This document shows, in pieces, positions 774 to 13,989 of a stretch of DNA of 24,393 bases. The DNA is from a virus. The DNA lies in IMG/VR virus record IMGVR_UViG_3300025174_000109, positions 1 through 24,393 of that record, one strand, 5' to 3'. A program made the translations under genes and the position numbers. Each line of letters starts with the position of its first letter. Within the stretch, counting starts at the first letter, position 1. The notes beneath the pieces are model-generated. The model was not told the DNA's origin, did no database searches, and was given only the letters and a program-made list of their open reading frames with translations.

Positions 774-952
774 TGCCGAAGGCGAAGAGGTATGTCTACG
801 TCGGCGGGACAGTCACATTGCATGATCGCAGAACGGCGAAAGAGATGTGTAACATCGATGATGCGAAGAAGAAGGTCTCCGTTACCATCGAACAGGGCGC
901 TCAAATCATCATCGAGCGCAAAGGACGGTTTTGCAAACATTGCATGGTCTAG
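773..952 (+). CDS. Small basic protein with terminal CxxC (59 aa)
   Basis: Two ATG codons, at 770 and 773, follow GGAGG at 761-765. The second is better spaced (7 bases) and is chosen. The product has a short beta-like first half (YVYVGGTVTL), Cys at 26, an acidic/basic middle with KVSVTIEQGAQIIIE, and ends in CKHCMV. The C-terminal CxxC is unusual and could act in metal binding or as a redox pair together with Cys26. The frame is open further upstream to 680, but that part is a shadow of the preceding gene. Function unknown. Confidence 0.5.
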   Translation: MPKAKRYVYVGGTVTLHDRRTAKEMCNIDDAKKKVSVTIEQGAQIIIERKGRFCKHCMV

Positions 953-1020
953 GAGTGATGCGGAGCGCAGTTCTCGAATCCAACCCTCACCACCAGCTAG
1001 AGGACGGCGTTTCCGCTGAT

Positions 1021-1059
1021 GCTCGGGAGCGAGCGGCCCGCCCCGCTCGCTCCCTTAGC
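1021..1059 (+). other. Perfect 12-bp stem-loop in a gap of about 146 bases
   Basis: Bases 1025-1036 (GGGAGCGAGCGG) are exactly complementary to 1043-1054, with a 6-base loop. Three more pairs (1021-1023 with 1057-1059) can form after small bulges. Only two T residues follow on the + strand and none of note on the - strand, so it is not a textbook terminator. The stretch 953-1098 has no convincing gene. The frame open from ATG 958 gives low-quality sequence, and its AGGAG is only two bases from that start. The hairpin may end or pause transcription, protect RNA, or bind a regulator. Confidence 0.5.
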
Positions 1060-1098
1060 TGTATCCATCGCTGGCGATTATCCGCGCAGATAGCTGGT

Positions 1099-1260
1099 AT
1101 GGTGTCCGGCAAGTGTCTGCGTTGTGGCGCAGATCGCACGTTCAACCCCTACGGGAGCCTGCGAGAAGTCTTCATGAAGGACAACGCCGCAGCACTCGGC
1201 TGGTTCTCTAGGCGGCGGTTGGGTGCGCTCCGCGATCTCCGAGCCGAGGTGCTGGGCTAG
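1099..1260 (+). CDS. Putative CxxC mini-protein (53 aa)
   Basis: The frame from ATG 1099 to TAG 1258-1260 gives a basic 53-residue protein with an N-terminal CLRCG knuckle (Cys 6 and 9), then a helical segment containing FMKDNAAALGWFSRRR. The stop overlaps a GTG start of the next gene (taGTG), which suggests coupling. There is no clear ribosome site at 1099. The same frame is open from ATG 958, which would put the strong hairpin inside the gene and add a residue stretch of poor quality. The start is therefore uncertain. No family recognised. Confidence 0.35.
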   Translation: MVSGKCLRCGADRTFNPYGSLREVFMKDNAAALGWFSRRRLGALRDLRAEVLG

Positions 1261-1574
1261 TGTATGTGCTGCGGCGCACGGTCGGCACAGGCATCACTAT
1301 TGCTGCGTCCGACATGTCGATAGACGTACGCTTGGTGGGCATCGACTGGCTGGGCGCATGTGCGCTCTTACACGTTGCGCGCAACGGCGCAGCCCAGCCC
1401 GGCACGGTCGAGATGGGGCCGGGCGAGACGATCTACGACCTCCACCCCGATGTGGAGTTCAAGCTGCTCCGGCTTGCGTACGCGACGCATGGCGGCACAC
1501 CGGCTCGCGTTGCGGAGTTCGGCATCAGCGCGCCGAAAGCGATTCGTATCTGGAGGATGGAGCAGGTAGGCTGA
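1260..1574 (+). CDS. CsrA/RsmA-like RNA-binding protein, apparently two CsrA halves in one chain
   Basis: The 104-residue protein begins (GTG start) with VYVLRRTVGTGITI, matching the first strands of CsrA (M-L-x-L-T-R-x-V-G-E-x-I-x-I). It ends with FGISAPKAIRIWRME, matching the last ones (IG-V-x-APK-x-V-x-V-x-R-E-E). The RNA-contact residues known from CsrA are kept: Leu4 and Arg6 in strand 1, and Arg99 where CsrA has Arg44. About 50 residues lie between. They contain a second partial copy (GETIYDLHPDVEFKLLRLA, like GE-x-I-x-I-GD-x-V-x-V-x-VL), so the chain may be a fused pseudo-dimer. An RsmN-like internal insertion is the alternative. GAGGTG at 1245-1250 is a plausible ribosome site. CsrA proteins bind GGA motifs in mRNA leaders and control translation. 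The role here is inferred. Confidence 0.55.
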   Translation: MYVLRRTVGTGITIAASDMSIDVRLVGIDWLGACALLHVARNGAAQPGTVEMGPGETIYDLHPDVEFKLLRLAYATHGGTPARVAEFGISAPKAIRIWRMEQVG

Positions 1575-1640: not shown

Positions 1641-1766
1641 GTGAGACTTGGCCGCGAGTGGATGATCCAGTGTTCCGCTTGCGGCTTCTTTGTACGAGGA
1701 GAGCGCAATCATGCCGTATTCTGGGCCAGCCGACACGTCGCTGCCGAGCAACGTCAAGAAACTTGA
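1641..1766 (+). CDS. Possible zinc-knuckle mini-protein overlapping the protease start (41 aa)
   Basis: A frame open from 1608 to TGA 1764-1766 encodes CSACGFFVRGERNHAVFWASRH, with Cys at 11 and 14 and His at 24 and 33 when read from GTG 1641. ATG 1662 is an alternative start that leaves the motif intact. The C-x2-C-x9-H-x8-H spacing could hold one zinc ion. It overlaps the first 56 bases of the protease gene in another frame. No good ribosome site is visible, and overlap with a real gene lowers trust, but the Cys/His pattern resembles the other mini-proteins nearby. Confidence 0.35.
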   Translation: MRLGREWMIQCSACGFFVRGERNHAVFWASRHVAAEQRQET

Positions 1767-3711
1767 TACGAAGCAGCGGCGGCAGTGGGTGAGCGTGTTT
1801 AACTCGGCATATGCTCGATGCCAGAAGAAGGGCGGCTCCAACTGCGAGAGCTTCGCGTTCCGCAACGCCAACGGCGTGTTGAAGAACGCCTCGACAACGT
1901 TCACAGGTCTACTTGGAGGAGAGCACCCGTTGGGGCGCTCGTTCGTCGAACTGTTGGCTGCCGAGCCGCCGGAGACGATCAACGTCTTTCCCGAGCCCGG
2001 CACGTACAAGCATCCGGTGTGGGGCGACATTGAAGTCACCAAAGAGGGGAACAAGCAGTTCGTCGAGAACTTCAACGCGCAGGTATATCAAGAGCACGTC
2101 CCTATTGATGCCGAGCACGAGACGAAGCTCTCCGGCGCTGTCGGGTACATCAAGAAGCTCAACATGAACGACGACGGCAGCATCGAGGCTGAGGTCGAGT
2201 GGACGGATCGTGGGCAGAAACTCATCGAAGAGGATTCATACCGCTACATCAGCCCGGAATGGTACGAGCAATGGAAAGACCCGGCTACCGGCGATGAGTT
2301 CGAGAACGTCTTGATTGGCGCTGCGCTGACGACGAGGCCATTCTTTAAGGGCTTGCGCTCGCTCGTCGCCAGCGAGGGGCACCTTTACGATCTTGAGGGC
2401 GACGAACGCACGCCGGTCGTACGGTCATCTGTAGAAGGCGTCTCGTATTCCGACTTGCAGACGATGGTGATGAGCGCTGCTCGCCACGAGTTCCCCGGCG
2501 TCTTCGGTGGCTCGTACGGCGGATGGGTCGTCGATCTGTACGACGATTATGCCATCATCTGCTCGAACGGCGAGCAGCACTACCGCGTCGATTACTCCTA
2601 CGAAGGCGAAGAGATCGTCATCTCCGGCCAGCCCGAAGAAGTCCAGAAGAAGACGGTCTGGGAAGTGATGCGCGCCCGAGACTACTCTCCGGACGAACGC
2701 AAGAAGCTCGCTGCAAAAGGCCACGCGATGCCTGATGGGTCATACCCCATCGTGACGAAAGATGATCTCGGCAATGCGATCCAGTCGATAGGACGAGCGA
2801 AGAATAAGGAGGCTGTGAAGAAGCATATCACCAAACGCGCGCACGCACTCGGCAGGACAGACTTACTCCCAGACGACTGGTCGGGGAGTACCAAGAAGAC
2901 GAAGGAGGAAGGTATGACTGTAGATGTCAAAGACCTCGACGTGACGACGCTTGAGGAGAAGGATCAGAGGAGCTTGCTCACGCGCCTCGCTGCGTCGCTC
3001 AAGGCTACCGTTCGGTTCGGCCACGATCCGGGTGGCAACGGCAATGGTAACGGAGAAGGTTCAGATACCGAAGATGACAAGGGGGCGGCTGACGATGGCG
3101 ACGCAGGCACGGGTGAAGGTGAGGGTGAGAGTGAGGGAGAAGGTGAGGGCAAGGGCGCTGGGGACTCTGGCGCTGGAGAAGGCGCCGTGACCGGCGCTGA
3201 ACTAACATCGCTCAAGGGGGCTCTTGAGAAAGAGCGTCAGACCAAGCAGGCGCTTGAGCGGCGCGTGCAGGGGCTCGAACAGGCCGACCGCGACCGGCGC
3301 TTCCGTGACATCATCTTGGGTCGCGATGAAGCGTCTGCGAAGGCGGCGAAGGAGGGCTCTCCGGTCTACCCAATGGTCGGTGATCTGGCTGCCAAGCAGC
3401 AGATCATGACCGCGCTGGCCGACACGAAGGGCGAAGCGTCGCCGGAGTTCAAGGCATATGTTGCTGGCGAGCGAGAGCACGCTTCACAACTTCGCGCGGC
3501 AGGCACGTTCTCGGAGTTTGGCACGGACTCGCAGGGCCAGCCGGTGTCTGCAAGCCCGATCCAGGAGATGGATCGCCGCGTCGCCGAGCTTCGAGCAACC
3601 GATCCAAGCCTGAGCCCAGCTGATGCGCTGACCAAGATCGCCAAGGAAGACCCGAAGCTGTATGCGGCCTACGACGCACACGTCAAGGACGATCGCAAGG
3701 CGAACGTGTAG
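1711..3711 (+). CDS. Mu I-like prohead protease fused to capsid scaffold, with ChaB-like N-terminus (666 aa)
   Basis: ATG 1711 is preceded by AGGAG at 1697-1701. The open frame to TTG 1690 is not needed. Residues 1-60 (SLPSNVKKL...WVSVFNSAYARC...AFRNANGVLK) resemble a ChaB-like segment. Residues 130-220 carry the Mu I protease signature: VPIDAEHE with His136, an EAEVEWTDRG strand, and YRYISPEWY with Ser181, a likely catalytic His/Ser pair by analogy. Residues 270-310 form a beta-rich segment, and 324-390 (YSPDERKKLAAKGHAMPDGS...LLPDDW) match a helical domain often fused to phage proteases. An acidic Gly/Glu linker (441-492), a coiled coil (about 497-535) and a scaffold-like C-terminus follow. 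The enzyme should cut scaffold and capsid proteins in the prohead. In Mu the I and Z products share one frame in the same way. Confidence 0.85.
   Translation: MPYSGPADTSLPSNVKKLDTKQRRQWVSVFNSAYARCQKKGGSNCESFAFRNANGVLKNASTTFTGLLGGEHPLGRSFVELLAAEPPETINVFPEPGTYKHPVWGDIEVTKEGNKQFVENFNAQVYQEHVPIDAEHETKLSGAVGYIKKLNMNDDGSIEAEVEWTDRGQKLIEEDSYRYISPEWYEQWKDPATGDEFENVLIGAALTTRPFFKGLRSLVASEGHLYDLEGDERTPVVRSSVEGVSYSDLQTMVMSAARHEFPGVFGGSYGGWVVDLYDDYAIICSNGEQHYRVDYSYEGEEIVISGQPEEVQKKTVWEVMRARDYSPDERKKLAAKGHAMPDGSYPIVTKDDLGNAIQSIGRAKNKEAVKKHITKRAHALGRTDLLPDDWSGSTKKTKEEGMTVDVKDLDVTTLEEKDQRSLLTRLAASLKATVRFGHDPGGNGNGNGEGSDTEDDKGAADDGDAGTGEGEGESEGEGEGKGAGDSGAGEGAVTGAELTSLKGALEKERQTKQALERRVQGLEQADRDRRFRDIILGRDEASAKAAKEGSPVYPMVGDLAAKQQIMTALADTKGEASPEFKAYVAGEREHASQLRAAGTFSEFGTDSQGQPVSASPIQEMDRRVAELRATDPSLSPADALTKIAKEDPKLYAAYDAHVKDDRKANV
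2902..2913 (+). promoter_or_regulatory. Internal ribosome binding site for a nested scaffold gene
   Basis: AAGGAGG at 2902-2908 lies 5 bases before ATG 2914, in frame within the protease gene. It is as strong as the sites used by the capsid and decoration genes. It falls exactly at the junction between the protease-associated domains and the scaffold part. Confidence 0.7.
2914..3711 (+). CDS. Nested capsid scaffold protein, in-frame restart inside the protease gene (265 aa)
   Basis: A second start at ATG 2914, with its own AAGGAGG, would make the last 265 residues of the protease gene as a separate protein. It begins MTVDVKDLDVTTLEEKDQ, has the acidic Gly/Glu-rich linker at about residues 40-91, a coiled-coil stretch with alternating Lys/Glu/Leu (about 96-135), and a helical C-terminus with a basic end (DRKANV). 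Scaffolds must greatly outnumber protease, and phages such as lambda (C and Nu3) and Mu (I and Z) solve this by the same in-frame nesting. That this start is used is inferred from the ribosome site and domain border. Confidence 0.7.
   Translation: MTVDVKDLDVTTLEEKDQRSLLTRLAASLKATVRFGHDPGGNGNGNGEGSDTEDDKGAADDGDAGTGEGEGESEGEGEGKGAGDSGAGEGAVTGAELTSLKGALEKERQTKQALERRVQGLEQADRDRRFRDIILGRDEASAKAAKEGSPVYPMVGDLAAKQQIMTALADTKGEASPEFKAYVAGEREHASQLRAAGTFSEFGTDSQGQPVSASPIQEMDRRVAELRATDPSLSPADALTKIAKEDPKLYAAYDAHVKDDRKANV
3031..3186 (+). repeat. Gly/Glu/Asp-rich low-complexity repeat in the scaffold
   Basis: This stretch encodes a disordered acidic linker. Its core, at about 3112-3153, is an imperfect GAGGGT/GAAGGT hexamer repeat giving alternating Gly-Glu and Ser-Glu. 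It separates the protease-associated domains from the coiled-coil scaffold. Such simple repeats can grow or shrink by slippage, so its length may differ between relatives. Confidence 0.75.
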
Positions 3712-4141: not shown

Positions 4142-5122
4142 ATGCCACAGCCAGACGTAGGGGATGTGCACGTCAATGCGCTGCTGACCGAGATCAGTAT
4201 CGCGCACATGAACAAGTTGGAGCACTACGTCGCCGATAAGTGCTTCCCGCTTGTTGGCGTGGACAAGCAATCAGATGTGTACGCGGTGTACACGCGAGGC
4301 GACTTCTTCCAGGGCGCAGAGGATGAGCAGGCGATGCGTCATCTGCTGAGGGCGCCTGGTACGAGAGCGCCGGTTGCTGGATACACTATCGACACGAGCA
4401 ACTCGTTCCGCTGCGATAACTTCGCCGTGGGCGTCGAGATCCCGGACGAGATTCGCTCGAACGCCGATGCGGTGTTCCAGCTCGACAACGAAGCGACGCT
4501 CCTGGCAACCCAGATTCAGATGATCCGACGTGAGCGCGCGTTCTCTGCCGATTTCATGGTGATTTCTAAGTGGGGGACGGACAAGACCGTCTCGGCCAAG
4601 TGGTCTGATTACGGAGGCTCAGACCCGTTCACCGATCTGGAAGATGGTCTGGATCAGGTAGAAGCCGACACCGGCGACCGCCCGAACAAACTCGTCATGG
4701 GCGCAATCGTGTGGCGGCGGCTGAAGCACCACCCCGACCTTGTTGACCGCATCAAGGGCGGCGCAACGACCGCGCAGCCCGCGCTCGTGCAGCGGCAACT
4801 GCTCGCGCAGATTCTTGAGATCGACGAGGTGCTCGTGGCGCGAGCGTCGTACCGTTCCAGCGCGGAAGGCGCTGCGCTCACGATGGCAAGAGTCATCGAC
4901 GACGACGCGCTGCTGCTCTTTGCGACGCCAACGCCGGGGCTGATGACTCCGACAGCGGGCATCTCATTCTACTGGCGTCCGCTGACTGGCGGGCAGCTCC
5001 AGTTCATGAGGAAGTACCGCATGGAGCCGGAGCGCAAGGATGTCCTGGAAGCGCACAGCTACATCGACCAGAAGATCACTGAGTCGAAGTCAGGATACTT
5101 CTTCGCGGACGTAGTGGACTAG
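4142..5122 (+). CDS. Major capsid protein (HK97-fold expected), 326 aa
   Basis: The gene has a near-perfect AAGGAGGT ribosome site and follows protease, scaffold and decoration genes, the standard place for the major shell protein. The sequence contains features I associate with Mu T/E-type capsid proteins: an N-terminal arm, a long middle with CDNFAVGVEIPDEIRSNAD, a helix with LLATQIQMIRRERAFSADF (spine-like), then RPNKLVMGAIVWRRLKHHPD and VDRIKGG, and a C-terminal part with WRPLTGGQLQFMRKYR. Length fits the family. Hundreds of copies build the icosahedral shell around the scaffold. No separate delta domain is evident. Confidence 0.85.
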   Translation: MPQPDVGDVHVNALLTEISIAHMNKLEHYVADKCFPLVGVDKQSDVYAVYTRGDFFQGAEDEQAMRHLLRAPGTRAPVAGYTIDTSNSFRCDNFAVGVEIPDEIRSNADAVFQLDNEATLLATQIQMIRRERAFSADFMVISKWGTDKTVSAKWSDYGGSDPFTDLEDGLDQVEADTGDRPNKLVMGAIVWRRLKHHPDLVDRIKGGATTAQPALVQRQLLAQILEIDEVLVARASYRSSAEGAALTMARVIDDDALLLFATPTPGLMTPTAGISFYWRPLTGGQLQFMRKYRMEPERKDVLEAHSYIDQKITESKSGYFFADVVD

Positions 5123-6576: not shown

Positions 6577-7458
6577 ATGGCAGAGCATGGAGCGCGACAC
6601 GCAGTTGTGCTGCGAGACTTCTCATACGAAGAGCGTCAGGGCGAAGAGGAGCTTGCTATCGAACGTTTCCTGCGCGCCGCGCCTGCCGACATAGATATCC
6701 ACGTCATCCCTCCATCTTTCATCGACGCAGAGGATATCGCGGATGCCGATTTGGTGATCTCATTCGGCATCAAGCGGTATCCCGATCAAGTCTTTGAGCG
6801 GCTGGTCGAGCATCCGCGACACGTCCATGTTGTTCAGGACTGGTGGGAGCCGCAGCAGCCGCAGAGTCAATGGCGCAATCAAGTAATCGAATCTGCGACG
6901 CGAGTGATCTTCACGAGCCCGTTACACGACGAGCGGTACGTACGACTCTATCAACCTAAGCGGATACGGAGCAGCATCGTCCCCTTCCCGCTCTCGGCGA
7001 ACGATTACGCTCCGGCGAGAGTCGAGCTAGAAGGTCGAAGCGCCGTGCTCTGGTGTCTGCCTTGGCATCCAGATTACGGCAACGATATCATGATCCGCTG
7101 GGCTCGGCAGGAATCGCAAGACGTGGATGCGTATGGGCTTGCCGTTCCCACTGGCGAGATCAGCGCGCGCGTGCGGGGCTGTGGCAAGATAGCACTCGAC
7201 GCCGCTGCGCCTACATTCCGGCAGTACGACAAGTTCATCTATTTCCCGAGAACACCAGTCCCGTTCGGCTTCACATTCCTGCTTGCGTACTTACTCGGAC
7301 TGGAAGTCTCGTACTCCGGCGAGATAGGCTGTCTCAGCTATGTGTCGGCTGTGGACTATGGCTGGCCGTCTTCTAGCATGAGTGTGGATGACGTGATCGA
7401 TGAATCTCTCGGAGCTACTGATAGATTTTGGGAGATCGTCGAAGAGGTGGTGGCGTGA
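6577..7458 (+). CDS. Divergent GT-B-type glycosyltransferase-like protein (293 aa)
   Basis: This protein opens the first carbohydrate island. It shows alternating strand/helix pieces typical of a GT-B enzyme: HAVVLRDFSYEERQ at the start, ADLVISFGIKRYPDQVFERL, then VIFTSPLHDERYVRLY, and SSIVPFPLSANDY at the domain border. In the second half are AVLWCLPWHPDYGNDIMIRWA and FIYFPRTPVPFGFTFLLAYLLGLEVSYSGEIGC. The last stretch sits where GT4 enzymes bind the nucleotide sugar, but the Glu-x7-Glu signature is missing. It may be a distant transferase or a partner subunit of one. The donor and acceptor are unknown. The stop shares a base with the next ATG. Confidence 0.5.
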   Translation: MAEHGARHAVVLRDFSYEERQGEEELAIERFLRAAPADIDIHVIPPSFIDAEDIADADLVISFGIKRYPDQVFERLVEHPRHVHVVQDWWEPQQPQSQWRNQVIESATRVIFTSPLHDERYVRLYQPKRIRSSIVPFPLSANDYAPARVELEGRSAVLWCLPWHPDYGNDIMIRWARQESQDVDAYGLAVPTGEISARVRGCGKIALDAAAPTFRQYDKFIYFPRTPVPFGFTFLLAYLLGLEVSYSGEIGCLSYVSAVDYGWPSSSMSVDDVIDESLGATDRFWEIVEEVVA

Positions 7459-8123
7459 TGGAATTCCTCTACGTCCACAAGAACGGCATCGCACTTCGCA
7501 AAGTAGCAGTCGAGGATCTGGAATTGCTGCTCGATCTGAAAACCGAATCGTGGTTCGGCACTCACCAGATCGCATTCCTCAACTACGCTGACCAGCTCGA
7601 TTGGTTTGAGTCGATACGGAAGAACCCTAATGCTCTCTATCTTACGGCGTACGATACTAGCAAGGACAACGCCAAAGTAGGGCTGTACACTGTTCAGCAC
7701 ATCGATTGGATCAATCGCGTTGCTCAGGATGGGCACCACGTCTTCAAAGAGCATCGGGGTAAGGGCTACAGTTTTCCGGTGAAGGAGGCTGGTGTCGACT
7801 TCGTCTTCGAGATGCTGAATACTAATAGGATTGAGGGTCAGGTCATCATCAACAACCTGGCATCCATGGGTCCTGCTGAGAGGGTAGGGTTCCAACGAGA
7901 GGGTACGCTTAGGCAAGCAGTCTATCGTTCGGGCAGATACCTCGATAGCTGGATCATCGGATTGCTACGAGAAGACTGGGAGCGTCTGCCAAGAGTCTTG
8001 GCATTTGGCGGCATCTGCAATACGTCCTATACGCCCAAAGATGGCACTCGCCGAGATGCTGTTGTTACTCCTTCAGAAGATGCGGCATGGATCGACGCTC
8101 GAAGTGGAGGGCATCTATCGTGA
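7458..8123 (+). CDS. GNAT-family N-acetyltransferase, probably acting on an amino sugar (221 aa)
   Basis: ATG 7458 overlaps the preceding TGA. The protein has the GNAT order: an N-terminal strand-helix pair (IALRKVAVEDLELLLDLK), and the acetyl-CoA loop HRGKGYS at about residues 99-105 with its helix. The late motif reads NRIEGQVIINNLASMGPAERVGFQREGTLR, the Asn and 'VGF' of which are typical of RimJ/RimL and PseH/WecD-type enzymes. A 50-residue C-terminal extension follows. Its stop overlaps the start of a sugar aminotransferase. That pairing is usual in pathways that first aminate and then N-acylate a nucleotide sugar. The substrate is inferred from this context. Ribosomal-protein or other acceptors are not excluded. 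Confidence 0.7.
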   Translation: MEFLYVHKNGIALRKVAVEDLELLLDLKTESWFGTHQIAFLNYADQLDWFESIRKNPNALYLTAYDTSKDNAKVGLYTVQHIDWINRVAQDGHHVFKEHRGKGYSFPVKEAGVDFVFEMLNTNRIEGQVIINNLASMGPAERVGFQREGTLRQAVYRSGRYLDSWIIGLLREDWERLPRVLAFGGICNTSYTPKDGTRRDAVVTPSEDAAWIDARSGGHLS

Positions 8124-9226
8124 TCCCTCTATTCAAAGTCGCAATGGCACCTGAAGCACTCCGGTTAGTAAACGACACGCTCTACTCCGGCTACATCGGC
8201 GAAGGCCCCCGCGTCGCCGAATTAGAGCAAGCCCTCGCCGACGTACTGGGCGCCCCTGTGCTCTGCACGAACTCGTGTACGTCTGCGCTCGACATGGCCT
8301 ATCATCTCATCGGCTTAGGTGAGGGCGACGAAGTGATCTCGACGCCTATGACGTGCCTTGCGACGAACATGCCACTTGCGTTGCGTAGGTGCAAGATCGT
8401 CTGGGCTGACGTTGATCCAAGAACGGGCAACATCGCGCCTGAGAGCGTCGCATCACTAGTCACACCACATACAAAAGCGATTGTTTGTGCAGATTGGGCG
8501 GGTAGACAGTGTGACTACGAGGCTCTCCGAATAGCAGGAAAAGGAATTCCTATCGTCGAAGATGCTGCGCACGCTTTTGGAGCGATGTATGAGAACATCT
8601 ACCATAAAAGCCTTCCAGTAGCTGTCTTTAGTGGCACCTACATATGCTGGTCGTTTCAGGCGATTAAGCACCTGACGACTGGTGATGGGGGTGCGTTGAA
8701 AGTCCCAGATCGCCAGCGAGAGCGTGCGCGGCTGCTGCGTTGGTACGGCTTGGATCGCAACGACTCAACCGCGATGCGATGCTTGCAGCAAGCAAGTGAA
8801 CCTGGGTTCAAGTATCAGATGAACGATATCGCGGCAACGATTGGTTTGGCAAACCTCTCCCTCGCGCTTGAGCATGTCGAGCAGCAGCGAGCGAATGCTC
8901 GTTACTACAACGAGCACCTGCCGGAGGGACTGACTGCTCCATACGACCCCGGCGCGGCATACTGGCTCTACACCATCCTCGTGGACGACCCAGCCGACTT
9001 CGAGCGGAAGATGGCCGAGCAAGGCGTCCAAACGTCGCAAGTCCATACGAGAAATGACAGGCAGAACTGCTTGCCTACGTCCGACCGTCCGCTGCCTGGG
9101 CTAGACGAATTCTCTTCACACATGATCTCGATCCCAGTTGGCTGGTGGCTGTCGAAGCAGGACTTGGGCGACATTGTGTATGCCGTCTCGAAAACTCTAA
9201 GGAGCAAAAGCCGTGCCGCTGTCTGA
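8120..9226 (+). CDS. DegT/DnrJ/EryC1/StrS-family PLP-dependent sugar aminotransferase (368 aa)
   Basis: GTG 8120, behind GGAGG at 8106-8110, overlaps the GNAT stop (GTGA). The family pattern is complete: YSGYIGEGPRVAELE near the start, NSCTSALDMAYHLIGLGEGD, the strand EVISTPMTCLATNMPL, and IVEDAAHAFGA. The PLP lysine is Lys183 in SFQAIKHLTTGDGG, the family's SF-x3-K-x3-TG-[ED]-GG. Length is normal. These enzymes move an amino group from glutamate to a keto-sugar bound to UDP or dTDP in the cytosol. Together with the GNAT they could form an N-acylated amino sugar. No dehydratase to make the keto-sugar is in the window, so that would come from the host or from elsewhere in the genome. Confidence 0.9.
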   Translation: MIPLFKVAMAPEALRLVNDTLYSGYIGEGPRVAELEQALADVLGAPVLCTNSCTSALDMAYHLIGLGEGDEVISTPMTCLATNMPLALRRCKIVWADVDPRTGNIAPESVASLVTPHTKAIVCADWAGRQCDYEALRIAGKGIPIVEDAAHAFGAMYENIYHKSLPVAVFSGTYICWSFQAIKHLTTGDGGALKVPDRQRERARLLRWYGLDRNDSTAMRCLQQASEPGFKYQMNDIAATIGLANLSLALEHVEQQRANARYYNEHLPEGLTAPYDPGAAYWLYTILVDDPADFERKMAEQGVQTSQVHTRNDRQNCLPTSDRPLPGLDEFSSHMISIPVGWWLSKQDLGDIVYAVSKTLRSKSRAAV

Positions 9227-9950
9227 TCTCGTCTCAGTCATTATGAGCACGGTCGATCCGTTGCAGGATCGCACTCAGCGAGCCATCGCGCACCTTGCTC
9301 GCAGCACAGCGTCGTACGAGCTTATCCTACTCAGCCGCAATCACGAGTGGACAACCGGCACAATCGCCAATCAGGGCATCGCGGCGTCGGTAGGGGGCTA
9401 CGTCGCGTTCTGCTGCGATGACTGCTTCGTCGAGCCCGGCGCGCTTGCAGCCATGAAAGCCGCGCTCCAAGACAGAACGGTCGGCGTCGCGGGTGCATTG
9501 CTGCTCTACCCGAATGGGCTCGTCCAGCATGCGGGTGGCTGGCTCACATGGTCGAGCGCAATGGGTGGCGAGGCGATACGGCTCAACCTGGGCCATGTCG
9601 GCCAGCACATGCCTGAACCGTCTAAGCCATTCGAATCCAGAGATGTGCCGTTCGTCACAGGCGCTCTTATGATGACGAGACGCGACGTGTTCGAACAAGT
9701 AGGCTGGTACGATCCAGATTGCAAACTTGACGCTGGCGATCTGGACTTCTGCTTGCGCGTGCGCCAAGCAGGCTACAGCGTCCGCTTCGTTGCAGAAGCC
9801 CGCGCCGTCCATCTAGAAGGTGCAACTCGCGGCAGCCGCCCTTCGGATCGAAAGTGGTTCTTCGGGAAATGGGGGATGACGCTCGCCAGTCCACTAACGG
9901 CGCTGGCCGAGCCGGAAGATGATTTCGTGCTAGTAGGAGGATCCCAGTGA
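9213..9950 (+). CDS. Family 2 glycosyltransferase (245 aa)
   Basis: GTG 9213 follows AAGGAG at 9199-9204 and overlaps the aminotransferase end by 14 bases. The GT-A layout is clear. VSVIMSTVD starts the fold. The metal/nucleotide-binding acidic pair is Asp69-Asp70 in CCDDCFVEPGAL. FVTGALMMTRRDVFEQVGWYDPD precedes the acceptor-side acid in AGDLDFCLRVRQAGYSVRFV, and an AVHLEGATRGS segment carries the usual His. It would transfer a sugar from a nucleotide donor, inverting the linkage. At 245 residues it is one compact catalytic domain with no membrane segment, so a cytosolic acceptor such as a phage protein is possible. The C-terminal 25 residues are a short tail. Confidence 0.85.
   Translation: MPLSDLVSVIMSTVDPLQDRTQRAIAHLARSTASYELILLSRNHEWTTGTIANQGIAASVGGYVAFCCDDCFVEPGALAAMKAALQDRTVGVAGALLLYPNGLVQHAGGWLTWSSAMGGEAIRLNLGHVGQHMPEPSKPFESRDVPFVTGALMMTRRDVFEQVGWYDPDCKLDAGDLDFCLRVRQAGYSVRFVAEARAVHLEGATRGSRPSDRKWFFGKWGMTLASPLTALAEPEDDFVLVGGSQ
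9935..9946 (+). promoter_or_regulatory. Ribosome site AGGAGGATCCCA, second copy
   Basis: It is identical to the 12 bases at 6565-6576 and stands directly before the GTG start of the GT4 gene, inside the end of the GT2 gene. Confidence 0.6.
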
Positions 9951-11254
9951 AGAAGAGGAACGGGCTGCGTATTCTCTGGAAGGCGAACGCACCCCATGTC
10001 GGTTCAGGCTATGGTGTCCAGTCCAATAGCTTACTGCCGCGTCTCATGCAGCATCCGAATGTCGAAGAGATCGGTATCTTCGGCTACTATGGCATCATGG
10101 GTGGGCTTTGTGAGCTTCCAGTTGGCATGGGGATACCAAATGTTAATCCGGTCAACCTCGCGCACTACCCCGTGGCCGACGACGTGTGGGGTAATGATGT
10201 CGTGTGGGAGCACGCCTACCACTTGGGCGCGCACGTCGTCATCACGCTCATGGACATCTGGGTGCTGAACGAAGACTACGGACATGGCGGGTTCCTCTGG
10301 CTGCCCTACGCGCCGGTGGATCACGAAACGATTCCTCCGCAAGTCCTCGATCGGCTACGACGAGCGTACCATCCTCTCGCCTACAGCAAGCACGCTGCTG
10401 GGCTGTTCGCCGAAGCCGGTCTGGATTCCCACTACATCCCGCACGGCGTTGAGACGAAGCTCTTCAAGCCGTACGACAAGGGCGGGAAGCTCCAGGCGAA
10501 GCGGTGGCTTGGCTTCGAGGATGAGCACTTCTTGATCGGCACCGTTGGCAGGAATGTCGGTTGGCCGTCTCGCAAGGGGTTCCCAGAACTGCTCGAAGCG
10601 TTTGCGATCTTCCACGAGACGCATCCAGAAGCCAGGCTGTTCGCGCACACAAGTATCGTGGACACGCGGCACAAGGGGCTGAATCTGCTTGCGCTGACGA
10701 AACTCTATGGTGTGAGCGACTTCGTGCGATTCTCGTTGCCGCACTTCAATCTGCTGGGCGCATCGACACAAGAGATGTGCAAGATGTACAACGCTTTTGA
10801 CGTGTTCTGTCTGCCATCAATGGGCGAAGGCTTCGGCATCCCGATCATCGAGGCGCAAGCCTGCGGCGTGCCTGTGATCGTCTCCGACTGGACGGCGTGC
10901 GCCGAACTCTGCGGCTCCGGCTGGAAGGTCAAGATCGGTAAGAAAATCCCAACGCCATTACAGGCGTTTCAGGCTTACGTTGATGTGGACGATCTCGTCT
11001 GGCGTATGGAAGAAGCCTACTTGGTCTGGAAAGACCCGATGGCGTATGCTGAGATGCGGACGAAGGCCAGAGCGTTCTCGATGCAGTACGACTGGGAGCA
11101 CCTGGTGAAGGATTACTGGTATCCATTCATGGACTGGCTCTGGGATCGCGTCGAGATCAAGACGATCAAGAAAGCGCCTCGACTCTATGCTGTCGATGGT
11201 TCGTCCGTCTTCGATATGGGCGCCGTGAGGGAGGGCAGCTCCGTTGTCGTATAA
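9947..11254 (+). CDS. Family 4-type retaining glycosyltransferase (435 aa)
   Basis: GTG 9947 overlaps the GT2 stop (GTGA). The GT-B fold shows ILWKANAPHVGSGYGVQS with a Gly-rich loop near the N-terminus. The linker into the second domain is IPHGVETKLFKP, and the donor-binding part has IGTVGRNVGWPSRKGFPELLEAF, with Arg/Lys for the phosphates at about residues 201-207. FCLPSMGEGFGIPIIEAQACGVPVIVSDW carries the Glu-x7-Glu pair at Glu294 and Glu302. This is a full-length, apparently active enzyme. The last 30 residues lie beyond the domain and overlap the next gene by 11 bases. It is the last gene of the first island. The transferred sugar and the target are unknown. Confidence 0.9.
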   Translation: MKKRNGLRILWKANAPHVGSGYGVQSNSLLPRLMQHPNVEEIGIFGYYGIMGGLCELPVGMGIPNVNPVNLAHYPVADDVWGNDVVWEHAYHLGAHVVITLMDIWVLNEDYGHGGFLWLPYAPVDHETIPPQVLDRLRRAYHPLAYSKHAAGLFAEAGLDSHYIPHGVETKLFKPYDKGGKLQAKRWLGFEDEHFLIGTVGRNVGWPSRKGFPELLEAFAIFHETHPEARLFAHTSIVDTRHKGLNLLALTKLYGVSDFVRFSLPHFNLLGASTQEMCKMYNAFDVFCLPSMGEGFGIPIIEAQACGVPVIVSDWTACAELCGSGWKVKIGKKIPTPLQAFQAYVDVDDLVWRMEEAYLVWKDPMAYAEMRTKARAFSMQYDWEHLVKDYWYPFMDWLWDRVEIKTIKKAPRLYAVDGSSVFDMGAVREGSSVVV

Positions 11255-11816
11255 CGCATACGAGAGGATCGCAGGAACTTCCGTCATCAAGTCCGTCGAG
11301 GCGCACTGCCGCCATCTGACGACGGCTGGGTCATTCTCTACAAGCAGCACGCCGTTATTGGAGCGGGTCGAGCAGTGGATTGACGAAGCCTACTACTACC
11401 TCCAGGCGCAGCTTGCCAAAGAGGGCTATAGCGTCACCATACCAGCGTCGGCTACCGCTGCCGTAGCGTTCCTGGAACAACTCAATGTCTATGGCGCGGT
11501 GATGCAGGTCGAGCTTGCACACCCCATCACGGGGCGTAGGGGTGAAGAGAATGACCGCTATAAGGCGTATCGTGATTGGTACGAAGCGGGCGTGTCGATC
11601 ATTGCGACAGACGCGCTCGCGGTTCTTGGCGCGACTCGCTCGACACAACTCTCGGCATACACCGAAGTAGGCGGCATTAGCCGCGACAGGAAGAAGGCCG
11701 CGTACGACGACGCCGACGCCGTACAGTCCAGATTCAAACGGGGCCTTGGCAGGCATCCAATGGTGCCGGAGCCAACAATCGGAGCGGGTGCTAGCACATC
11801 GGGGACTGCGATATGA
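11244..11816 (+). CDS. Probable head-tail adaptor (gp6-like connector), 190 aa
   Basis: The frame starts at TTG 11244, with GGAGGG at 11229-11234, inside the GT4 end. A helical bundle is suggested by the first 110 residues: IKSVEAHCRHLT, LLERVEQWIDEAYYYLQAQLAKEG, and ATAAVAFLEQLNVYGAVMQVE. That is the layout of small HK97 gp6/SPP1 gp15-type connector proteins, which attach below the portal. The following RYKAYRDWYEAGVSIIATDAL is another helix, and the C-terminus is Gly/Ser-rich. The place, upstream of a probable tail terminator and tube gene, agrees. The assignment rests on size, helical pattern and order, so it is tentative. Confidence 0.45.
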   Translation: MSYNAYERIAGTSVIKSVEAHCRHLTTAGSFSTSSTPLLERVEQWIDEAYYYLQAQLAKEGYSVTIPASATAAVAFLEQLNVYGAVMQVELAHPITGRRGEENDRYKAYRDWYEAGVSIIATDALAVLGATRSTQLSAYTEVGGISRDRKKAAYDDADAVQSRFKRGLGRHPMVPEPTIGAGASTSGTAI

Positions 11817-12241
11817 GTTACGAGGCAGTCGAGAGCGGTCTGGCCGAGCAGCTCCGCGCACTCGCAGCATTTGCTGACGATCAGGTGTCGCAGGGCAACT
11901 GGCTCATCTTGGGCTATGGACATCCGTATGCGGCGATCATCGAATACCAGTCGTTTGAGGCGACGCGAGTGACGGCAGATCAAGAGACAATGTTCCGCTG
12001 GACAGCGCGTGTGCATCTCTACGCCAGGTATACGGACGACGATGGCGCGAACAACGCACTCCGCGACCGGCGCGATGAAATCATCACTCGTATTCTGCAG
12101 AACCCAACACTTGGCAGCACAACGTTGGATAGTATGCCGGTACGTGGCTCCGTCGCGTCGCCGGACGAGGTTGAGATCGGCGGCGTGGTGTTCGTCCACG
12201 AGTACATAGATGTGGAGATCGAGGAGCTTGTGAGTGCATGA
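11813..12241 (+). CDS. Probable tail terminator / neck protein (142 aa)
   Basis: ATG 11813 overlaps the preceding stop (ATGA), and its own stop overlaps the methyltransferase start. The sequence reads as an alpha/beta protein: an N-terminal helix (GLAEQLRALAAFAD), then strands, FRWTARVHLYARYTDDDGANNALRDRRDEIITRIL, and a late pair of strands (VEIGGVVFVHEYIDVEIEEL). The strand with R-x-x-V-H-L-Y followed by a helix that counts the small domain is what tail terminators such as lambda U or HK97 gp9-like proteins show. These cap the tail tube and join it to the head. The call fits the gene order but is not proved. Confidence 0.5.
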   Translation: MSYEAVESGLAEQLRALAAFADDQVSQGNWLILGYGHPYAAIIEYQSFEATRVTADQETMFRWTARVHLYARYTDDDGANNALRDRRDEIITRILQNPTLGSTTLDSMPVRGSVASPDEVEIGGVVFVHEYIDVEIEELVSA

Positions 12242-12720
12242 ACGCCATCGAGATCGGCGGCAACGCTGGCCCGAGGGACGGCTTCTTGCAAGTCGATCTC
12301 CGTGGCCGTCCCGACGTTCGCGCCGACATCCGAGCGCTCCCGTTCAAGCACCTCGACCGCATTCATGCTTCGCATGTCCTTGAGCATGTGCCGGATGCCG
12401 AGGTCGTGACGGCGCTGAAGTCTTGCCGCCGCGCATTGCGCCCCGGCGGCGTGCTCGAAGTCTACACGCCCGATCTACCCTGGCTGCTGCGCCGGTTCTT
12501 GCGCTGTGGCAACCGGGGCGAGCGGTGGTCGCTCTGGCTGCGGTTTCTCTACGGCTCGCAGGAGCATGAAGGTCAGTATCACCGGACAGGGTTCTCTACG
12601 GAGCGGCTTGCCGACTGCCTGGTTGCGGCGGGCTTTCGAGGAATCAAGACGCGCCGCGTCGTTCGCAAAGAGCGCAATCTTGGGAGGCATATCGAAGTCT
12701 ATGGCATCGCCACCGCGTAG
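12238..12720 (+). CDS. Small class I SAM-dependent methyltransferase (160 aa)
   Basis: ATG 12238 overlaps the terminator stop. Motif I is the degenerate IEIGGNAGPRDGFLQVDLR at the very N-terminus. The rest is typical of the Methyltransf_11 type: ADIRALPFKHLDRIHASHVLEHVPD, then LKSCRRALRPGGVLEVYTPDLP. The late GQYHRTGFSTERLADCLVAAGFRGIKTRRV is also normal. The fold therefore begins at once with the SAM site and lacks an N-terminal cap. Proteins of this kind are frequent in bacterial polysaccharide clusters. With a transferase gene just downstream, O- or N-methylation of a sugar is likely, but the substrate is unknown. Confidence 0.75.
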   Translation: MNAIEIGGNAGPRDGFLQVDLRGRPDVRADIRALPFKHLDRIHASHVLEHVPDAEVVTALKSCRRALRPGGVLEVYTPDLPWLLRRFLRCGNRGERWSLWLRFLYGSQEHEGQYHRTGFSTERLADCLVAAGFRGIKTRRVVRKERNLGRHIEVYGIATA

Positions 12721-12733
12721 TAGGAGGACACCA

Positions 12734-12916
12734 ATGCCACACTGGTTCAAAGACCCGCTCGGACACGAGTTCGAGATCGCTGCGGAGCAATCTGTAGGCG
12801 ACGCCGTGATCGTCTGCCCGATATGCGGATGGCGGGGGACGACGCTCGACGGCGGGGCGGAAGTGCTGTCCTCTACTGAGCTGGAATCTGAGCTGGAAGT
12901 TGAGGACAAAGAGTGA
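12734..12916 (+). CDS. CxxC mini-protein inside the second sugar island (60 aa)
   Basis: ATG 12734 is preceded by TAGGAGG and its stop overlaps the GTG of the following transferase. The protein begins PHWFKDPLGHEFEI, has a CPICGWRG knuckle at Cys28 and Cys31, and ends in an acidic Ser/Glu-rich tail. With only one CxxC pair plus His3 or His11, it could bind metal alone or as a dimer. It is translationally coupled to the CgeB-like gene, which suggests a working link, but no family is recognised. Confidence 0.6.
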   Translation: MPHWFKDPLGHEFEIAAEQSVGDAVIVCPICGWRGTTLDGGAEVLSSTELESELEVEDKE

Positions 12917-13989
12917 AAGTCCTCGTTGTCAGCCCGGTTCCGACATACGCGACATGGGATGTGTTCGAGGGGCACGTCCAGGGTCTGCGTGCCAACGGCG
13001 TTGAAGTCGAGCGGATGAACTACTCGAAGGTGTGGAACATGTTCGCCGACTTCAAGGAGTTCATGGAAGTCACCGGACGGGCTGAGTTTAATACGGTGAA
13101 TCATACGCTGCTGGCCGGAGATCGGATCGTCCTCGCGGCGATCACGCTCGAAGTCGATCTCGTGCACGTCGTCGCGCCAATGCATGTGAACCCAGTGACG
13201 TTGAAAGTCCTGAAGCAGTACACGAACGTCAAAACTTCGGCGTACTTCACGGAATGTCCATACGACGACCAGTGGGCGCTGAAGCTCGCTGAACTCTTTG
13301 ACTACTGTTTCGTCTGCGACAAGACTTCTGAGCCCGTCTTTGCCGAGCATAATCCGAAGACGAAATACATCGGCCACGCCTACAACCCAGAGAAGCACTG
13401 GCGGAACGGCGCGTCCGGCGCGCCTCCACGAGCCGATGTTGTCTTCGTCGGAACGAACTTTCCTAGCCGCGTGAAGTTTCTCGAAGCCGTAGATTGGGCG
13501 GACATCGATCTCGAACTGCACGGCTTGATGCGGCTTGGCAGCGCCTCGGTGCTGGACAAGTACGTCAAGACGAACGTGGCCATCCCGAATGACCAAGCGC
13601 TCGCGCTCTACAAACAGGCGCGTGTCGGGCTACAGATGCATCGCAGAGACGGATTCGATCCTATCGCTGCGGGCCGAGGCAAGCGATACGGTCGTGGGTT
13701 GGTCGGCGCGAAGCCGATTGAAAATCTCCACGCGCACAGCCTCGGCCCACGTAGCTACGAGTTAGCTGCGTGTGGCGTCTTTCAAATCTGCGACGAAGGG
13801 AGGGTGGAGCTTACTGAAGTTTTTGGGGATACGGTGCCAACGTACAGCACGCCGGAAGAGTTGAGCGCTCTCTTGCGAAGGTATCTGGACGATCCATCGC
13901 GTCGAGATGAGCTTGCCCAGGCGCAACACGAATCGGTGAAGCCATTCACATTCGAGATGCGGATGCGCGAGCTTCTGGAAGCTCTGTAG
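12913..13989 (+). CDS. CgeB-like (GT4-related) glycosyltransferase (358 aa)
   Basis: GTG 12913 overlaps the previous stop. A GT-B protein is indicated by VLVVSPVPTYATWDVFEGHVQGL at the start, HVVAPMHVNPVTLKVLKQY, the strand YFTECPYDDQW, and the domain crossing YIGHAYNPEKH. The second half has ADVVFVGTNFPSRVKFLEA and then LGPRSYELAACGVFQICDEG. The last of these, with its Arg-x-x-Glu-x-x-Ala-Cys-Gly, is the key motif of CgeB/DUF3880 and Glyco_trans_1_2 proteins. The end, TYSTPEELSALLRRYLDDPSRRDELAQAQHE, is also typical. Members add sugars to spore, surface or other polymers. Its neighbours are methyltransferase, zinc-ribbon and tail tube genes, the last 10 bases downstream. Confidence 0.8.
   Translation: MKVLVVSPVPTYATWDVFEGHVQGLRANGVEVERMNYSKVWNMFADFKEFMEVTGRAEFNTVNHTLLAGDRIVLAAITLEVDLVHVVAPMHVNPVTLKVLKQYTNVKTSAYFTECPYDDQWALKLAELFDYCFVCDKTSEPVFAEHNPKTKYIGHAYNPEKHWRNGASGAPPRADVVFVGTNFPSRVKFLEAVDWADIDLELHGLMRLGSASVLDKYVKTNVAIPNDQALALYKQARVGLQMHRRDGFDPIAAGRGKRYGRGLVGAKPIENLHAHSLGPRSYELAACGVFQICDEGRVELTEVFGDTVPTYSTPEELSALLRRYLDDPSRRDELAQAQHESVKPFTFEMRMRELLEAL

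Follow-up and report, generated by a model that had tools for sequence, protein, structure and literature searches.

The textbook protein of the CsrA family is a dimer that has two sites and bridges two RNA elements, each RNA site pairing strand beta1 of one chain with strand beta5 of the other. A small phage gene in the 24,393-nucleotide window (the whole stretch of DNA analyzed here, positions 1 to 24,393 of the IMG/VR virus record IMGVR_UViG_3300025174_000109) raises the question of whether both units of such a dimer can be combined in one chain that keeps a single RNA site, and of what such a chain would bind. A natural one-site, single-chain CsrA, if true, would mean that bridging is dispensable and would provide a clean test of what a single site is capable of. 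Our search of the open literature, which omits most subscription journals, turned up no description of a naturally occurring single-chain CsrA.

The gene and its genomic context

The original prediction placed a CsrA-like gene at 1260-1574, and an ORF that starts with GTG and encodes 104 amino acids occupies exactly these coordinates (Table 1). This ORF is a real gene. It evolves under purifying selection, with pairwise dN/dS values of ~0.16 and ~0.13 in comparisons with the IMG/VR contigs L003 and L004, respectively (range about 0.1-0.2), and the substitutions that separate the window from these two contigs gather at third codon positions. Homologs are present in five other distinct IMG/VR phages, which makes six phages with the window. 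Near-identical or 60-71% identical copies are found in contigs L001, L002/L003, L004 and L023, while the copies in L019 and L022, located via a search with the adjoining capsid protein, are much diverged (29% and 24% identity, respectively) and lie in the same position as elsewhere. No relatives of the protein emerged when 84,980 genomes of bacteria and archaea were scanned twice with a combination of pattern search and tblastn. Among 50,697 named phages, tblastn searches with the window protein returned four weak and unconvincing matches from cyanophages (E=0.08), and three of its homologs returned none. Among relatives that share the capsid or protease genes, CsrA-like genes are absent both from the named-phage regions examined and from L055-L073. 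The group of phages that bears the gene is rare.

In all six phages the CsrA-like gene is situated between the genes for neck/tail completion and for a Mu-I-like head protease, the latter followed by the decoration and capsid genes; some loci have additional genes inserted ahead of it (one or two small ones, or one that is methyltransferase-like). It is therefore incorrect that the gene opens the late region, as initially stated: it is preceded by terminase, portal and neck genes in L023, by portal and neck genes in L004, and, in the window, by a neck gene. At five of the six loci its initiation codon overlaps, or directly adjoins, the stop of the ORF ahead of it, and the leader in the window contains no Shine-Dalgarno sequence. 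Taken together, the stop-start overlap and the missing Shine-Dalgarno sequence point to translational coupling of the CsrA-like gene to the gene that precedes it.

The neighborhood contains other small genes as well. ORFs rich in Cys and His (C-H-R-W ... C-x-x-C-G-A-x-R-x-F), which resemble zinc-ribbon proteins, recur just 5' of the CsrA-like gene or of the protease gene (window 931-1260, with the likely start at 958; L003 3787-4023; L056 2939-3172). Further downstream, in the interval between the head and tail genes (window 6577-13989), inspection of the translations by eye points to several glycosyltransferase-like proteins, one acetyltransferase-like protein, one DegT-like aminotransferase and one small methyltransferase-like protein, a gene set that suggests sugar modification of the virion or of the host surface.

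Table 1. Features of the CsrA-like locus and the adjoining head genes (window coordinates)
Feature	Position	Strand	Remarks
Tandem CsrA-like protein, single chain (predicted)	1260-1574	+	104 aa; GTG start overlaps the stop of the upstream ORF; without its own Shine-Dalgarno sequence
First CsrA-like unit (predicted)	1260-1382	+	beta1 2-7, beta2 11-15, beta3 20-29, beta4 34-41 (AlphaFold2, alignment, hhalign); retains Leu4 and Arg6
Fused short strand, residues 48-52 (predicted)	1401-1415	+	stands where unit 1 would have its beta5 and unit 2 its beta1; without CsrA site residues
Second CsrA-like unit, without strand 1 (predicted)	1425-1571	+	beta2' 57-62, beta3' 65-77, beta4' 80-90, beta5' 96-100 (right-half hhalign E=4e-7; Pfam CsrA stretch 87-101)
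Terminator-like hairpin	1650-1692	+	separates the CsrA-like and protease genes; stem of 12-13 bp, loop of 11 nt, U-rich tail; sole such hairpin in the window
GGATGATCC element, top of the hairpin	1660-1668	+	with the following A forms GGATGATCCA, identical at the same place in 4 of 6 homologs
Head protease Shine-Dalgarno sequence (GAGGAG) and ATG	1696-1713	+	from sequence; directly after the hairpin
Mu-I-like head maturation protease gene	1711-3711	+	PF10123 E=3e-15; phrog_328
Major capsid protein gene	4142-5122	+	phrog_1005 E=6e-68

Relationship to CsrA

The N-terminus of the protein aligns without gaps with residues 1-14 of CsrA (MYVLRRTVGTGITI and MLILTRRVGETLMI, respectively), with Leu4 and Arg6 of strand 1 present, as had been proposed. 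At the other end GISAPKAIRIWRME aligns with GVNAPKEVSVHREE of CsrA, and the Arg that the original prediction noted there, along with the APK segment, is indeed found, Arg99 occupying the position of Arg44, although one homolog (L019) has lost it. Only R5, R6, G9, G55, G79, G88, A91 and P92 are invariant in the alignment of the six family members; R6, G9, G88, A91 and P92 of this set coincide with R6, G9, G33, A36 and P37 of CsrA. The equivalents of the three site residues Leu4, Arg6 and Arg44 are all present in the window, L002, L004 and L023. In L022, Ile replaces Leu at position 4, and L019 contains Ser4 as well as Pro at the position equivalent to Arg44.

When a profile of the six sequences was compared with 177,635 sequences from the PDB, all ten matches with E<=10 were members of the CsrA/RsmA/RsmE/RsmN(RsmF) family, the best with E=0.0018; RsmE was matched at both ends with this same value. 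Scores against the Pfam CsrA family (PF02599) are below the gathering cut-off of 27 bits for the window protein and all homologs: 17.9 bits for the window protein (E=0.003, residues 87-101 only), 22.2 bits for L004, and 25.1 bits for L023 (E=1.7e-5), which is the highest value. The regulator of Erwinia phage PEp14 that is annotated as CsrA-like obtains, by way of comparison, 19.2 bits. The TIGR00202 cut-off is also missed (16.2 vs 70.1). With manually entered CsrA sequences, used for hhalign as well as for the tandem comparisons described below, the right half alone (residues 44-104) aligns with residues 9-46 of CsrA with an hhalign E-value of 4e-7; the N-terminal half by itself has no match to the Pfam CsrA family and a weak one in hhalign. 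Judged from these sequence comparisons, homology to CsrA is well supported, since the PDB matches of the profile all belong to the CsrA family and L023 attains 25.1 bits.

Tandem architecture and the candidate RNA-binding site

An artificial tandem CsrA from which the last strand of the first unit and the first strand of the second were left out (beta1-4 plus beta2-5, nine strands) aligns with the family end to end with a score of 45-46, compared to 33-34 for a model with one CsrA unit. Null models with shuffled strands 2-4 of unit 1 reach at most 40.5, and the tandem model is above 60 of 60 of them. For two members of the family AlphaFold2 predicts a single chain with nine strands in the CsrA order (mean pLDDT 88.6 and 87.9), and the second unit retains Gly88, Ala91, Pro92 and Arg99, the counterparts of Gly33, Ala36, Pro37 and Arg44. 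That the chain is a fusion of two CsrA units and has nine strands rather than ten is thus reasonably supported by the alignments and the predicted models. In a structure comparison, RsmF is matched by the first model (Z 4.4, 51 residues at 2.6 Å, 28% identity) and is not listed for the second. Generic beta-sandwiches outscore RsmF in the structure searches and account for most of the rows returned, and the Foldseek matches with E<=0.001 include no CsrA. Neither Foldseek nor the VIA comparison gives a decisive CsrA match, with generic beta-sandwiches in their top rows, and known structures speak neither for nor against the putative barrel. BFVD contains three phage proteins without annotation (A0A6G5YD98, A0A2I7QSD7 and A0A6J7WXS8; 85-106 aa) that exhibit TM values of 0.70-0.72 to the predicted model and may be further single-chain CsrA-like proteins.

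Because the RNA site of the dimer joins beta1 and beta5 of opposite chains, site one of the tandem chain would combine beta1 of the first unit with beta5 of the second, which hold Leu4, Arg6 and Arg99. Site two would correspond to the fused stretch 48-52; this stretch carries none of the CsrA site residues, hence the second site is predicted to be missing. The one-site geometry is consistent with the sequence and defines a candidate RNA-binding site only. The single-chain, one-site pseudo-dimer of the original prediction is thus partly supported: the tandem score, the predicted nine strands and the restriction of the site residues to the two outermost strands, beta1 and beta5', agree with it, but the Arg44 equivalent is lost in L019.

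The phage protein shares with CsrA/RsmA/RsmE (PF02599) the Leu4/Arg6 motif of strand 1, the G-x-x-A-P-x motif before strand 5, the equivalent of Arg44 and the profile similarity. However, CsrA is a domain-swapped homodimer of ~60 aa chains with two sites, whereas the phage chain of 104 aa is predicted to contain two units, to have lost one site, and to have condensed the fifth strand of one unit and the first strand of the next into a single strand. A CsrA heterodimer with one working site has been engineered; it resembles the phage protein in the single working site predicted for the latter, but it is a laboratory construct made of two chains. Each sheet of an RsmA dimer receives its beta1 and beta5, which are the outer strands, from the other chain; in RsmN/RsmF of Pseudomonas aeruginosa, a rearranged CsrA, the beta1 and beta5 that form an RNA site belong to one and the same chain (PMC3791407). 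RsmN/RsmF differs from the phage protein in having one unit, a helix between beta2 and beta3, and two sites per dimer, as opposed to two putatively fused all-beta units.

A hairpin before the protease gene

A terminator-like hairpin with a large loop is present between the CsrA-like and protease genes in five of the six phages (GGAUGAUCC-type in three of them), a new observation that goes beyond the original prediction. In the window it starts 75 nt past the stop codon of the CsrA-like gene; the Shine-Dalgarno sequence of the protease gene is within about 10 nt of it, and the protease start is ~20 nt from its end. A scan for stems of at least 10 pairs with a U-tail detected exactly one hairpin in each of the window, L016 (=L003), L018 (=L004), L019 and L022, each in this position; the minus strand has none. 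The stem exhibits compensatory changes (4 of 11 pairs altered on both sides), and the loop GGATGATCC is kept in the window, L003 and L004, with related GGA/UCC arrangements in L019 and L022. In L023 the long stem is absent and GGATGATCCA is retained (GGAUGAUCCA kept). An RNA model built from three sequences ranked the hairpin of L022 first (E=4.5e-5) and that of L019 third (E=0.03) in 470 kb. A 16-base loop pattern occurs in 49 IMG/VR stretches, and the full hairpin only in the three that contain the CsrA-like gene; Rfam yielded no matches. We did not retain raw folding energy as evidence for the hairpin, as it is not unusual in this GC-rich genome; it is the perfect stem with the U-tail and the position that stand out instead.

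The AGGAGGA leaders of the phage had been considered as conceivable targets on account of their GGA. This GGA belongs to ordinary Shine-Dalgarno sequences and is inseparable from them, so no enrichment can be claimed, and the downstream hairpin is a better candidate target. Its GG, unlike in the standard CsrA loop site, sits in the closing stem.

Just after the CsrA-like gene, at 1585-1607 of the window, a strong Shine-Dalgarno sequence (GGAGG) precedes a three-codon ORF (ATG TCG CCT TGA), which is not seen in L003 and L004.

Putative function

We propose, with about even confidence, that a one-site CsrA pseudo-dimer regulates the expression of the head genes via the adjoining hairpin. According to this scenario, a CsrA-family protein of two fused units and nine strands, predicted to bind RNA, would be produced within the virion operon by coupling to the translation of the preceding gene. 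Its sole intact site (strand 1 of the first unit with strand 5 of the second) would accommodate one RNA per molecule, most likely the hairpin 75 nt past its own stop codon, and binding would tune the readthrough, or the translation, of the protease, decoration and capsid genes. The Pro at the Arg44 equivalent of L019, whose hairpin is intact, counts against this model; in its favor, Bcep22-like phages independently exhibit a CsrA-like gene, a hairpin and a capsid gene in that order.

It is unlikely, in our opinion, that the pseudo-dimer acts instead as a sponge or decoy on host RNAs or host CsrA-binding sRNAs, with the hairpin as an unrelated leaky terminator or mRNA stabilizer. The CsrA ancestry would suit such a role, ordinary terminator-like hairpins are present elsewhere in related phages, and the residues of the protein are not strictly correlated with the hairpin (L019, L023). 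However, the loop is conserved and the hairpin occurs at a constant position, beside the CsrA-like gene only; the gene is located deep in the virion operon and not among early host-takeover genes; and, because the hairpin ends ~20 nt before the protease start, protease transcripts from upstream promoters must traverse it.

Rather unlikely, too, is that the CsrA-derived chain has lost RNA binding and taken on a structural or assembly role in the head-neck region, as could be imagined from its location between the neck and protease genes and from the absence of the Arg44 equivalent in L019. Phage baseplate plug proteins (Z 5-6) do equal or exceed RsmF in the fold comparison, but generic beta-sandwiches reach such values too. 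The invariant residues correspond to the strands of the CsrA RNA site and form no new surface, and Pfam and PHROGs give no matches to structural families. Moreover, in the regions covered, related phages with the same capsid genes lack the CsrA-like gene, hence its product is not needed for assembly in general.

Another reading, a single CsrA unit that carries a 50-residue insertion between strands and dimerizes like RsmA, would explain why the strong sequence match to CsrA is limited to the outer N- and C-terminal parts; we regard it as improbable, since the right half by itself aligns with CsrA 9-46, the tandem score is well above the single-unit score, and the single chain is predicted to adopt a nine-strand fold. 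Finally, it is hardly conceivable that an unrelated small beta protein has come to resemble CsrA by convergence, as the sub-threshold Pfam scores and the Foldseek matches without CsrA might suggest, given ten CsrA matches out of ten in the PDB profile search and the 25.1 bits (E=1.7e-5) of the L023 homolog.

Comparison with Bcep22-like phages

Divergent CsrA homologs of Bcep22-like podoviruses have been catalogued in a survey of CsrA in phages, which lists CsrA-like genes and appears to propose no target within the phage (PMC7366521). In PEp14, Pavtok, BcepIL02, Skulduggery, Itty13, Parlo and SopranoGao a single-unit CsrA-like gene lies directly 5' of the capsid gene, and in each of these seven phages a strong hairpin is found ahead of the capsid gene start. 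The loops inspected (PEp14 and SopranoGao) contain no GGA, so only the arrangement is common to both phage groups. The Bcep22-like regulator (phrog_8397; PEp14, BcepIL02, Skulduggery, SopranoGao) is thus similar to the one described here in being encoded in the virion operon 5' of the capsid gene and accompanied by a strong hairpin. However, it comprises a single unit of ~60-69 aa and is associated with other hairpin sequences in unrelated podoviruses, and the phrog_8397 profile does not match the proteins of the window, L019, L022 or L023.

Two unrelated phage groups have a CsrA-like gene paired with a hairpin ahead of their capsid-building genes, which points to an unrecognized control of virion protein dosage. 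It is tempting to speculate, if only tentatively, that the fused one-site CsrA serves as an attenuator or antiterminator on a dedicated hairpin and thereby sets the amounts of the head protease, decoration and capsid proteins, and that the Bcep22-like modules might do likewise for the capsid gene.

The hairpins of the Bcep22-like phages fall in the interval between the CsrA-like and capsid genes at L038 8145-8262, L039 34476-34579, L040 2181-2280, L041 2181-2283, L042 2181-2288, L044 2184-2281 and L046 2193-2307, and several of them contain a GCGCAAGACGTGCGG-like stem.
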